A stretch of 32,462 nucleotides of DNA from positions 1 to 32,462 of IMG/VR virus record IMGVR_UViG_3300012096_000016; one strand, given 5' to 3'. Position numbers and translations under genes: made by a program. Numbering within the stretch: the stretch's first letter is position 1; each line of letters begins with the position of its first letter. This document shows positions 21,717 through 25,777 of the stretch, piece by piece. Under the pieces are notes generated by a model. The model worked only from the letters and a program-made list of their open reading frames with translations, was not told the origin of the DNA and did no database searches. This DNA is from a virus.

Positions 21717-21862
21717 TGAACAAGATCGTATCCACAACCTACTACCACGATTACATCCTCATCTTTTGTGAGAACGGAGACATCTATAGGTTGATTGTGG
21801 AAGATATCACCCTTTGGAAATGCACCTTTCAACGTATTGCTGAATTCCGACCACAACCATGA
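21713..21862 (+). CDS. Small hypothetical protein, 49 aa
   Basis: Overlaps on both sides (ATGA at 21713 and 21859) place it between DUF3310 and the polymerase N-part. The product begins MMNKIVSTTYYHDYILIFCE and continues NGDIYRLIVEDITLWKC, a beta-rich small domain. No family is recognised. Confidence 0.6.
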   Translation: MMNKIVSTTYYHDYILIFCENGDIYRLIVEDITLWKCTFQRIAEFRPQP

Positions 21863-22959
21863 AACCCATCTTCTTAATCGGCGAAGCCCAAGGGGAAAAC
21901 GAGGCCAAGATCGGCAAGGGCTTCGTCGGAGCTACAGGAGCCGAGTTGCTTCGGATGCTTAACGACTCCGGCGTCATCACCCTTACCTCCGAAGACCGCT
22001 CCTACCTCTCCAAGTGGTACCGCACAAAGGACCCATGGACCCTTGCCACCATCTGGGACCTTCATCCCGAGTTGTACCGAACTAACGTCTTTCAACAACA
22101 TCCGCCCGGCAATGACCTTCTATACTTCTGTGGTGGGAAGGCCGAAGGCATCGCCGGATACCCTATCCTGCAGAAATCCAAATACGTCCGAAAGGAGTTC
22201 CAACATGAGCTTGATCGGCTGGGTGACGAAGTGCTTGCTTGTGACCCTAACCTCATTGTCTGCTTGGGTAATTCTGCTTTGTGGGCTATGGCTGGCCGGA
22301 CTGGTATCACTAAGCTTCGTGGAACGACTTGCGTCAGCACTCACACTGTTAGCGGCTATAAGCTTCTACTTACTTATCACCCATCCGCCGTCACAAGGCA
22401 GTGGGAACTCAGACCAACAACCGTAGCTGATCTAAGCAAAATTCTGAAAGAAAAGGACACCGACGATGTCAAACGGCCAAAATGCACAATCTGGATCGAC
22501 CCGTCCCTGGCCGAAATACGCATCTTCATCCGCCGGTACATCCGTGGCTGCAAGATACTTTCGGTCGATATTGAAACAAGCGGCAACCAGATTACGAGAA
22601 TTGGATTCGCACCCCGACCGGATCTTGCTCTCGTGGTTCCGTTCCATGACTCCCGAGCAAAGAGCGGTAGCTATTGGCCGACTGCAAAAGCTGAACGATC
22701 ATGTTGGGAGCTTATACGTCAGGTGCTTGAGGATCAATCAATCCTTAAGCTATTCCAAAATGGATTATACGACATCCCGTTTATCCTCAGAACTACTGGC
22801 ATTGCAACCCGGGGCGCTACTCACGACACCATGCTCCTCCATCACGCCCTTCAACCAGAAAGCCTTAAGGGACTAGCGTATCTGGGATCAATCTACACCG
22901 ACCACCACGCCTGGAAGACAGAATACCGTAACAGTAAGACTATCAAGAGGAATGCATAA
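21859..22959 (+). CDS. DNA polymerase N-part: uracil-DNA-glycosylase-like domain plus split 3'-5' exonuclease
   Basis: 366 residues. Residues 1-195 resemble a family-4-type uracil-DNA glycosylase: IGEAQGENEAKIGKGFVGAT (7-26), YRTNVFQQHPPGN (73-85), DPNLIVCLGNSALW (129-142) and LTYHPSAVTR (171-180). The N-terminal C-x2-C of Fe-S glycosylases is missing. Residues 230-366 are the first part of a DnaQ-type proofreading domain: Exo I SVDIETSG (D237, E239) and Exo II FQNGLYDIPF (D305), then HDTMLLHHALQPESLKGLAY. The third exonuclease motif is absent here and appears at the start of the 23116 gene. Glycosylase-like domains fused to family-A polymerases are known in phages, for example SPO1. Whether the glycosylase part is active is unknown. 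Confidence 0.85.
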   Translation: MKPIFLIGEAQGENEAKIGKGFVGATGAELLRMLNDSGVITLTSEDRSYLSKWYRTKDPWTLATIWDLHPELYRTNVFQQHPPGNDLLYFCGGKAEGIAGYPILQKSKYVRKEFQHELDRLGDEVLACDPNLIVCLGNSALWAMAGRTGITKLRGTTCVSTHTVSGYKLLLTYHPSAVTRQWELRPTTVADLSKILKEKDTDDVKRPKCTIWIDPSLAEIRIFIRRYIRGCKILSVDIETSGNQITRIGFAPRPDLALVVPFHDSRAKSGSYWPTAKAERSCWELIRQVLEDQSILKLFQNGLYDIPFILRTTGIATRGATHDTMLLHHALQPESLKGLAYLGSIYTDHHAWKTEYRNSKTIKRNA

Positions 22960-22960
22960 G

Positions 22961-23116
22961 ATGGAACTAGACCCATTATTGGAATTGATCGTTTGTGCAC
23001 TTAAGAATACTGAACTGGATTGTAATAGGTGGGATGATTCAGTTCAGCGTGAGTTAGCAACTGACATAGCAGAGAGGTTAGAGGCTAAATTTAATATCAC
23101 CATCAAGGATGAGTGA
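22961..23116 (+). CDS. 51-aa ORF separating the two polymerase genes
   Basis: It starts one base after the stop of the N-part gene and its TGA overlaps the polymerase ATG (TGATG at 23114-23118). The product is acidic and helical (MELDPLLELIVCALKNTELD, then ELATDIAERLEAKFNITI). It is in a different frame from the two polymerase genes, which share one frame. It is AT-rich compared with both. It is too short for a group I intron or a homing enzyme. It could be a bridging or regulatory peptide, or the remains of an insertion. Confidence 0.6.
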   Translation: MELDPLLELIVCALKNTELDCNRWDDSVQRELATDIAERLEAKFNITIKDE

Positions 23117-24615
23117 TGAGGATAGTTAACACTCATGAATGTGAACCAGAGGATCTCCACAACCATGATGAAAGAGAGAGCACATACTGCGGACTTGATT
23201 GTTGTGTCACTTCTGAAATCTTGGAAGTGCTCCTCCCTCAGTTGGACGATCATACCAGAAGAACGTATAGCTTCTCTCGGGCCTTGCAGGGCCCTGTACT
23301 CGAAATGCAACTGCGGGGTATATTGGTTGATCAGGCCCGAAGACAAGAGGCCATCGACCTCTATACCGACAAGATCGACCAGCTTGAACAACAACTAGAG
23401 CAGATCGTTCTCGACGGAGTCGGGATGCCTACCTTTTCTTGGCGCTCTAACCCCGACCTGCAAAAGCTCTTCTTCGGCTATCTCGGGATCCCTGTGATCC
23501 GCAAGCAAGGCCGCCCCACCACTGATCACAAGGCCTTGGAGAAGATGCAGATCTTCCTCGTGGCCCGACCGATCGTTAACCATCTCCTCACCATGAGAGA
23601 GCTTCAAAAGAAGATAGATTTCCTCAGAACCGGAGTTGACCCCGATGGACGAATTCGAACCAGCTACAATATCTCAGGAACAAATACTGGTCGCTTTAGC
23701 TCTAGCTACTCGGAATTTGGCACAGGCGGAAATCTACAGAACGTGGAGGAAAGCCTTAGAGGCGTTTTCATCAGTGATTGGGGATGGAAGTTTGCCAAGT
23801 TCGACGCCAAGGCAGGAGAGTCTTACGTAGTAGGTGCCATCGAGGGAAACCTCTTCAACGATTGGAGATATTTAGATGCTGTCGAATCTGGCGATGTGCA
23901 TACAGCGGTTGCTCGAATCTGTTGGCCCAATCTTGGATGGACCGGTGATCTCAAGCGAGATAAAGCTATCGCTGAACGACCATTCTATCGTCACTATTCA
24001 TATCGATTCATGTGCAAAAAGCTTGGACATGGAAGCAACTACGGAGGCCAGCCCGAAACCCTCGCCATGCAAACCAACCTCCCAGAGCCAGTCGTCATTG
24101 GATTTCAGCCAAAATACTTTCACGCCTTTCCTGCTCATCTACGTTGGCACGGATGGACTGCAAGTACCCTCCAGCAGCTTGGATATCTTATTACAATTAC
24201 TGGCCGAAAGCGATGGTTTTTTGGAAGGCGAAATGATCCTGCAACCCTCAGGGAAGCCATTGCATACAATCCTCAGGGCTCGCTAGCTGACATTGTGAAC
24301 AGAGCCATGCTCCGCATCTGGCGCAAGCGCCCTTGTTTCATAATGATGCAAGATCATGACGCCCTTACTTTCATGTATAAGGAACAAGATGAAGATAAAA
24401 TCGTTCCAAAGCTTCAAGAAATGCTCGTGGAGGAACTCCCGCTTCAGCATGGCCGTTCGTTAAGCATCCCTTATGATTGCAAAACCGGGTGGAACAAAGG
24501 TAACTGGAATGCTGAAGCGAACCCTGACGGCCTCAAAGACTACGAAGGCCATGACGAACGGCGACGCCAGCCGAAAGTGTCGGTCATGGATCGATTGCTT
24601 CATAGAAAGTACTGA
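23116..24615 (+). CDS. Family-A DNA polymerase, polymerase part
   Basis: 499 residues. It opens with the missing Exo III motif YCGLD (Y24, D28), then carries the polymerase domain. Visible are TSYNISGTNTGRFSS (about 182-196), LQNVEESLRGVFISD, and motif A KFDAKAGES (D230, E235). Motif B is R297-x3-K301-x3-H305-x3-Y309-G310, and motif C is QDHDALTF (H414, D415). Position 305 is His where E. coli Pol I has Phe762, and residue 416 is Ala where Pol I has Glu883. The catalytic aspartates D230 and D415 are kept, so synthesis should be possible. ATG 23116 overlaps the 51-aa ORF stop; GTG 23113 is an alternative. It is the replicative polymerase of this phage. Confidence 0.92.
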   Translation: MRIVNTHECEPEDLHNHDERESTYCGLDCCVTSEILEVLLPQLDDHTRRTYSFSRALQGPVLEMQLRGILVDQARRQEAIDLYTDKIDQLEQQLEQIVLDGVGMPTFSWRSNPDLQKLFFGYLGIPVIRKQGRPTTDHKALEKMQIFLVARPIVNHLLTMRELQKKIDFLRTGVDPDGRIRTSYNISGTNTGRFSSSYSEFGTGGNLQNVEESLRGVFISDWGWKFAKFDAKAGESYVVGAIEGNLFNDWRYLDAVESGDVHTAVARICWPNLGWTGDLKRDKAIAERPFYRHYSYRFMCKKLGHGSNYGGQPETLAMQTNLPEPVVIGFQPKYFHAFPAHLRWHGWTASTLQQLGYLITITGRKRWFFGRRNDPATLREAIAYNPQGSLADIVNRAMLRIWRKRPCFIMMQDHDALTFMYKEQDEDKIVPKLQEMLVEELPLQHGRSLSIPYDCKTGWNKGNWNAEANPDGLKDYEGHDERRRQPKVSVMDRLLHRKY

Positions 24616-25777
24616 GGCTTTGGGAAGCCCCTGCATTTTCCGGAAGTGGTCGGCGATTTCTATGCTGGCCGCGGCGGTGGAGCAGCGGGTTTATGTTATA
24701 TCTGGAGGGGATAAGCTTCACGCCAATATCTACTGTGCCTTGATAGGGCATCCAGGCACCGGCAAAACGCGAAGCATTTACCGCGCCCGCGACTACTACA
24801 TGACAATGGAAGGGGCACCTATAGCCCCAACCTCAATGACAGATGCTTCAATGATTGATGCGCTAACGCATTATAAACGAACCGCGATGTTGCCGGAACC
24901 GGACGGGCCTATTGAATATAACTCAATGTACATCACAGCGGATGAACTCTCGGCGTTTATGAAAGCCTATGATGAAGGTGCTATTGGGACAATGTCTGCG
25001 TTTTATGATCCTAAGGCCTACGGGCAATGGCGGCGGGGGAATGATCTTAAGATTAAGATAAAGCGGCCACAACTAAATCTCATCGTGGGCACAACCCCCT
25101 CGAACCTTCTCCACTACATGCCTGAGACAGCATGGGAGCAGGGGTTTACGTCGAGGATAATAATGGTTTTCTCAGATGAAAGGACGATTGGAGATGACTT
25201 CGCACCTGACGTTGATACGAATCTTAACGATAATCTTATTCATGATCTACATAGTATTGCAGGTCTTGTCGGTAAGTTTACGGTTACCGAAGACTACCGA
25301 AGCTGCGTCAATCAATGGCGGAAGCTCGGAGAGCCCCCAGTTGTGTCACACCCCAAACTTATCCATTATGGGACCCGACGGCGTGTCCACCTTTATAAGC
25401 TCAGCATGGTGTCAGCCATTGAACGATCTGACTTGCTTGTGCTCACTCGTGACGACTTCAACCGAGCGATGAATTGGATGACAGAGGCGGAAGCGGCCAT
25501 GCCGGATATCTTCAAGGCTGGAGCTGGCAACGCCGATGCGAAAGCAATGGATGAGATCTTCCATCATGTCCTGACGATGCAGATACGGGGCCCTGTGATA
25601 GAAAGGAAGATTATCAACTTCGCCAAGGACAGGGTGCCGCTACACTCTATAGAGAGAGTGGTCCAGATCATGATCATGGGGGGAAGGCTTAAGGTGGTGA
25701 AACAGGACTTCCGCACTGGGCAGAGGTTCTTCAAGGCGGAAGTCCCGGATGTGGATGAGGATGGGAGTCTTATTTAG
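24551..25777 (+). CDS. AAA-type helicase/primase-like protein (DUF3987-like)
   Basis: The chosen start is ATG 24551 (MTNGDASRKCRSWIDCFIES), which has GAAGG just upstream and overlaps the polymerase end by 65 bases; an earlier TTG would lengthen the overlap. The product is about 408 residues. It has Walker A ALIGHPGTGKTRS (about 63-75) and Walker B SMYITADELSAF. A GTTPSNLLHYM stretch typical of sensor 1 is followed by an arginine in EQGFTSRIIMVF. The N-terminal EALGSPCIFRKWSAISMLAA resembles DUF3987-type phage helicases, which unwind DNA ahead of the polymerase. No primase domain is seen, so priming is unexplained. Its stop overlaps the convergent gene stop. Confidence 0.75.
   Translation: MTNGDASRKCRSWIDCFIESTEALGSPCIFRKWSAISMLAAAVEQRVYVISGGDKLHANIYCALIGHPGTGKTRSIYRARDYYMTMEGAPIAPTSMTDASMIDALTHYKRTAMLPEPDGPIEYNSMYITADELSAFMKAYDEGAIGTMSAFYDPKAYGQWRRGNDLKIKIKRPQLNLIVGTTPSNLLHYMPETAWEQGFTSRIIMVFSDERTIGDDFAPDVDTNLNDNLIHDLHSIAGLVGKFTVTEDYRSCVNQWRKLGEPPVVSHPKLIHYGTRRRVHLYKLSMVSAIERSDLLVLTRDDFNRAMNWMTEAEAAMPDIFKAGAGNADAKAMDEIFHHVLTMQIRGPVIERKIINFAKDRVPLHSIERVVQIMIMGGRLKVVKQDFRTGQRFFKAEVPDVDEDGSLI

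Follow-up and report, generated by a model that had tools for sequence, protein, structure and literature searches.

A probable two-subunit proofreading DNA polymerase in a phage clade whose replicase gene is divided between Exo II and Exo III

Results

The IMG/VR record of an uncultivated phage, IMGVR_UViG_3300012096_000016 (positions 1 to 32,462; this whole stretch of 32,462 nucleotides is referred to below as the window) carries a family-A DNA polymerase in two genes separated by a short open reading frame (ORF), all on the plus strand. ORF A (21859-22959, 366 amino acids) encodes a uracil-DNA glycosylase (UDG)-like domain and the N-terminal part of a 3'-5' exonuclease, ORF B (22961-23116) is a 51-amino-acid spacer ORF in frame 2, and ORF C (23116-24615) encodes the Exo III motif and the whole family-A polymerase domain in 499 amino acids counted from its ATG, or 500 from an alternative GTG start at 23113. 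A and C have frame +1 in common, and the TGA stop of B shares one base with the ATG of C (TGATG). The coordinates, the shared A/C frame and the 51-residue ORF in another frame had been described in the original prediction and were confirmed on the sequence; motifs and Pfam domains likewise bore out its assignment of D237, E239 and D305 to A and of YCGLD (Y24-D28) with the polymerase to C. Read in frame, the spacer of the window contains 11 stop codons, that of A among them, and a fused A-C product is therefore impossible there.

Relatives of the pair were collected by a scan of viral contigs with C, in which tblastn confirmed 80 loci, and by an alignment-seeded scan, which added 80 more and superseded a single-sequence scan seeded by the isolated Caulobacter phage Kuura that had returned one locus. 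A scan of GTDB genomes with C found no relative. The gene was split at the identical residue in 74/74 loci with both genes from the first scan and in 76/76 from the second, as well as in Kuura and in locus L089. After removal of contigs seen twice, 149 distinct loci with both genes remained; exonuclease and polymerase were fused on a single polypeptide in 0/149 and encoded by two ORFs throughout, so that the proposed check for the same split in relatives was positive in every distinct locus. The products of the first scan set measured 365-376 amino acids for A and 493-517 for C. The 136 parsed sequences, the window included, fell to 96 at a 90% identity cut and to 45 at 70%, with divergence down to 33% identity.

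The same five exonuclease residues, D237, E239 and D305 in A and Y24 and D28 in C, occur in 136/136 sequences and are present in intact relatives too. Exo I (D237-I-E239) lies at 22567-22575 and Exo II (N301-G-L-Y304-D305) at 22759-22773, where N301 is also kept in 136/136 and position 304 is Tyr in 125 sequences and Phe in 11; Exo III (Y24-C-G-L-D28) lies at 23185-23199. Only 13 of 137 columns of the exonuclease part of A are invariant and these include all three Exo I/II carboxylates, while the six invariant columns among the first 60 of C include the Tyr and Asp of Exo III. By these counts the match of the catalytic residues is far beyond chance. The ratio of nonsynonymous (dN) to synonymous (dS) substitution against close relatives was 0.06-0.13 for the exonuclease part of A and 0.05-0.12 for C, and by these estimates both parts are under purifying selection. 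A complete set of Exo I, II and III is present but divided between two proteins, and without A the Exo III motif of C could not act in an exonuclease.

A extends to the point where intact homologues have '..WKDEGKEW-..GED' (alignment A2). The break had been predicted to fall before Exo III, where the missing residues would be dispensable. Its position holds, but nothing is missing: alignment to intact UDG-exonuclease-polymerase genes showed the essential residues retained across the break, and C has gained a conserved N-terminal stretch, MRIVNTHECEPEDLHNHDER (23116-23175), which follows the pattern M[KR]IIxT..P.. and is not found in the intact homologues of alignment A2. A in turn ends in a conserved tail, T-I-K-R-N-A in the window (22939-22956), with the consensus T[IV]KRD[EAK] across the clade.

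Intact UDG-exonuclease-polymerase genes occur in a sister group comprising Microcystis phage Mel-JY34 and some 15-20 contigs. In a tree of 73 sequences with both halves concatenated, the split group forms one side of a single branch with support 100; on this tree the split is one ancient fission, sister to phages with the intact gene. The 810-residue protein of Mel-JY34 (PP438425) represents the nearest unsplit group and has the domain order and catalytic residues of A plus C, but on one polypeptide. This group has neither the stretch gained at the start of C nor the TIKRD ending of A. Further, independent fissions were found in the sister group, inside the polymerase domain in L085 (Vibrio phage ABTNL-3), L109 and L115, and between UDG and exonuclease in L107/L113; outside it, the long-branch L087 is broken after Exo III, between exonuclease and polymerase. 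In L110, as in L085, L109 and L115, the break lies upstream of polymerase motif A. An HNH_3 gene occupies the break in L113 (Pfam E-value (E) 2.8e-10; phrog_1872, 7e-23) and L092, the closest relative of L107, has an intact gene, so that L107/L113 resembles a fresh fission by a mobile endonuclease. This replicase gene family looks like a fission hot spot at several domain borders.

The junction of the split clade varies in content. No spacer separates A from C in 37 of 135 loci, where the two genes overlap or abut, 24 of them by ATGA; TAATG junctions were also seen. The other 98 have a spacer, with lengths up to 1178 nucleotides (nt). The spacers hold 142 ORFs in 70 groups, mostly unrelated to each other. 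Endonucleases of three types were found in the junctions of at least 16 relatives: HNH_3 above the Pfam cut-off in L130, L143, L182 and L025 and by weaker Pfam, PHROGs or BLAST matches in L005, L010, L011, L144, L146, L151 and L152, Endonuclease_7 in L008, L024 and L030, and LAGLIDADG_3 above the cut-off in L047 and below it in L022. The spacer of the window carries none. Its ORF B matched no Pfam family and has homologues at the equal position in L005 (80%) and L018 (69%), with a dN of 0.11 and a dS of 0.39 against L005. Other junction genes encode an RNase H (L089, 3157-3678), an NrdR-like zinc ribbon (L122, 2299-2604) and a deoxyribosyltransferase-like protein (spacer of L164-L167), and this replication and nucleotide-metabolism cargo between polymerase halves may be non-random. 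On the tree, the junction changed between occupied and empty at least 14 times.

The tail of A in the window embeds a Shine-Dalgarno sequence, AAGAGG, at 22945-22950. Its Arg codon is AGG or AGA (AGR) in 46/58 cases against 331/1561 elsewhere in A; after thinning at 75% identity the figures are 29/48 against 298/1623 (Fisher p 3e-10, with related sequences only partly independent). The tail thus appears to serve also as ribosome-binding site for whichever gene comes next, a form of translational coupling. In L026, L028, L070, L071, L178-L180 and L185, A and C abut and are read in one frame. The single intervening stop is TAG in L026/L028, L070 and L071, where occasional read-through to a fused protein would be possible.

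For structure prediction with AlphaFold2, a read-through chain was used for modelling only, with stops replaced by Gly/Ser and the spacer serving as linker. The A+C model reached a predicted local distance difference test (pLDDT) score of 80 and a predicted template modelling (pTM) score of 0.77, with the 52-residue spacer disordered. Foldseek aligned this tethered model with Klenow end to end over 725 columns (8oo6, E 1e-22, template modelling (TM) score 0.72 by target; 1kln, 0.74), and the exonuclease, thumb, palm and fingers are thus predicted to adopt a Klenow-like arrangement. C by itself, modelled from a larger alignment, showed an unchanged polymerase core. Residues 2-41 of C, however, were scored at pLDDT 85/82/93/94 with A and at about 54/64/43/59 alone, the Exo III segment (22-32) falling below 50, and a strand at residues 2-5 (421-424 in the A+C model) was lost in the C-only model. 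Because strands assigned by DSSP need a partner, the strand gained at the N-terminus of C is probably paired with A.

Outside the exonuclease motifs, both proteins keep the hallmarks of their families. A matches UDG (PF03167, residues 3-186, E 1.7e-12), DNA_pol_A_exo1 (residues 230-348, E 1.8e-6) and phrog_17, annotated as DNA polymerase. The UDG-like domain (21865-22416), predicted earlier, is upheld by the Pfam match and by its motif residues (GEAQG..E, and HPS at 174-176), with E9 kept in 130, G24 in 135, H174 in 129 and P175 in all of the 136 sequences. Superfamily match and the GE.xG and HP[SA] motifs place A in the UDG superfamily (family 4-like). Family 4 uracil-DNA glycosylases have a four-cysteine iron-sulphur cluster; in the window (21859-22416) the N-terminal cysteine pair of this family is absent, and A starts at the GE-motif strand (MKPIFLIGEA).

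C matches DNA_pol_A (E 2.5e-32) and, by phmmer, Taq (E 7e-20) and Klenow (E 4e-17) polymerases. It has motifs A, B and C of a family-A polymerase: the motif A aspartate D230 (23803-23805, 136/136), motif B, R297-x3-K301-x3-H305-G-x2-Y309 (24004-24042), aligned to the O helix of Taq with R, K, H and G in 136/136, and motif C, H414-D415 (24355-24360, 136/136). H305 (24028-24030) occupies the O-helix position of E. coli Phe762, which is His in 136/136 sequences of the split clade and, in alignment A2, in the intact sister group as well. Surveys describe Phe, Tyr and Leu types at this position, and one survey of PolA retained F, L or Y only (PMC9069017), a filter that would have excluded the present clade. 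A 'His762' type of polymerase seems to be undescribed.

Downstream of C, a DUF3987 or primase-helicase-like ORF (24473-25777, plus strand; Pfam DUF3987 4.1e-12; phrog_14296, DNA primase, 2.7e-34) shares, in its longest form, 143 nt with the end of C (24473-24615). A comparable overlap occurs in L001, L002, L026 and L071, and either the long overlap is genuine or the true start codon lies further downstream.

Discussion

We consider it highly probable that A and C form a two-subunit proofreading polymerase which arose by an ancient, clade-fixed and probably mobile-endonuclease-driven fission. A single ancient event divided a UDG-exonuclease-polymerase gene between its Exo II and Exo III motifs; the likeliest cause is that a mobile endonuclease gene inserted there. 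The divided form was then fixed in a large phage clade, in which small genes and endonucleases have continued to settle in the junction. Translation of A and C would be coupled, and the two products would come together as one Klenow-like enzyme. Its 3'-5' exonuclease site would be composed of D237, E239 and D305 in A and of Y24 and D28 in C, with C supplying the final helix of the nuclease fold, and the N-terminal strand gained by C probably helps to clip the two together. Most likely, therefore, two separate proteins must join for one working proofreading site.

The stable natural fission proposed in the original prediction is strongly supported by a single origin, the 149/149 loci, purifying selection and the invariant split residues. 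Of its further suggestion of a post-insertion relic, the insertion origin finds support in the endonucleases of at least 16 junctions and in the HNH split of the sister group; the idea that the exonuclease is dead does not. Its third option, proofreading controlled by subunit assembly, is a conjecture. Several points weigh against the two-subunit reading. We infer both the physical assembly of A with C and the proofreading activity, and the founding endonuclease insertion is deduced from relatives, ORF B of the window having no family. The A+C model comes from a single tethered chain and an alignment with 13 naturally intact homologues, and is thus compatible with joint folding but does not speak for independent docking. 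In addition, the scans rely on short conserved patterns and some fused members may have escaped them.

It is improbable that A and C stay apart, with C a polymerase without proofreading and A a separate UDG or DNA-binding protein that keeps a leftover half of an exonuclease. Many polymerases do function without proofreading, and the contact between A and C is a proposed one, but none of the 136 sequences departs from the Exo I, II and III residues in either protein, the constraint on the exonuclease part of A equals that on C, the Exo III segment is predicted to be disordered in C alone, and the genes are always adjacent or coupled. A single polypeptide, produced by reading through the stop, by a -1 frameshift or by splicing of either an intron or the protein, would suit the loci in which A and C abut in frame with one stop (L026/L028, L070, L071, L015) and those whose ATGA overlap would permit a -1 shift; we regard it as very improbable, given that all three relative frames occur, that spacers reach 1178 nt with 11 in-frame stops in the window, and that the ends of A and C are too short for split inteins. 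Rfam found no intron RNA on 13 sources, and the idea that TAG is recoded in the in-frame loci was rejected, since other genes there end in TAG. The window is a metagenome contig, yet a sequencing or assembly error, which the original prediction had named as fatal to it, is excluded by the independent contigs and by phage Kuura. The chance of any such error, or of a recently broken gene that is being lost, is negligible, since 149 independent loci, and the isolate Kuura, are broken at the identical place, dN/dS lies far below 1 and start signals are embedded.

The order of events at the origin is less settled than the two-subunit enzyme, which would be the same if a point or indel mutation had split the gene and endonucleases had invaded the junction later. 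This course is possible, though we think it the less likely of the two. The 37/135 loci with no spacer, the mostly unrelated spacer contents (142 ORFs, 70 groups) and an ORF B of the window that is not an endonuclease speak for it; the sister-clade HNH_3 gene exactly at a fresh break (L107/L113, beside the intact L092) shows the route by insertion, and spacers are present in nearly all sampled lineages that branch early in the split clade. Whether the endonuclease came first or later is a question likewise open for gene 43 of Aeromonas phage 25 (PMC2988022). More speculatively, the two-chain form of the enzyme might have been retained as useful, although we would sooner doubt than assume this: C would copy without proofreading when A is scarce, docked A would add proofreading and uracil sensing, fidelity would be set by subunit supply via translational coupling, and C would have evolved its N-terminal strand specifically for docking.

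Among the closest known cases is Kuura itself (OQ067476; PMC9959647), whose genes Kuura_029 and Kuura_026 have the break and domain content of the window at 34-37% identity, with the small genes 028 and 027 between them. Annotation gives one half simply as a 'hypothetical protein' and the other as a 'DNA polymerase'; the split goes unmentioned in the paper (PMC9959647). In Aeromonas phage Aeh1, NrdA-a and NrdA-b result from a split by the homing endonuclease mobE and the two chains rebuild an active enzyme (PMC2988022, PMC3267527). As here, an essential phage enzyme is cut in a functionally critical region; in contrast, the enzyme is a ribonucleotide reductase, and the split was reported for a single phage that still has the endonuclease in place, not as one fixed across a large clade. 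Two features of such 'genes in pieces' of the Aeh1 nrdA type, namely an intact homologue in related phages and no essential residue lost, are found in the present pair; a third, an endonuclease gene at the break, is seen in at least 16 relatives but not in the window. The products of genes 43A and 43B of Aeromonas phages 25 and 44RR co-purify with polymerase activity (PMC2988022) and are also a phage replicative DNA polymerase in two genes, but one of family B with a seg endonuclease or untranslated insert at the break. A split family-A polymerase with a small unknown ORF between the parts was reported for the OM43 phages MEP401 and MEP402 and their relatives, in most group members (PMC10580990). 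These belong to another lineage and their break lies inside the polymerase domain, leaving the exonuclease whole in one chain; the palm-split loci of the sister clade (L085, L109, L115) are of this type. In the papers searched, mostly outside subscription journals, we found no family-A polymerase whose break lies between Exo II and Exo III, and no polymerase fission that is fixed over so large a clade.

To our knowledge, known proofreading polymerases have their exonuclease catalytic residues on one chain, either fused (Klenow, T7) or separate (DnaQ). Here these residues appear to be divided over two chains, in a whole clade as well as in the growable isolate Kuura. The split explains a misannotation, with half of a replicase labelled 'hypothetical', and a search for the exonuclease domain in the polymerase gene alone would wrongly class these phages as proofreading-deficient. 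Moreover, with about 150 natural variants the persistence of gene fissions becomes addressable, and the pair offers a testable natural split polymerase in which a second chain would switch activity.

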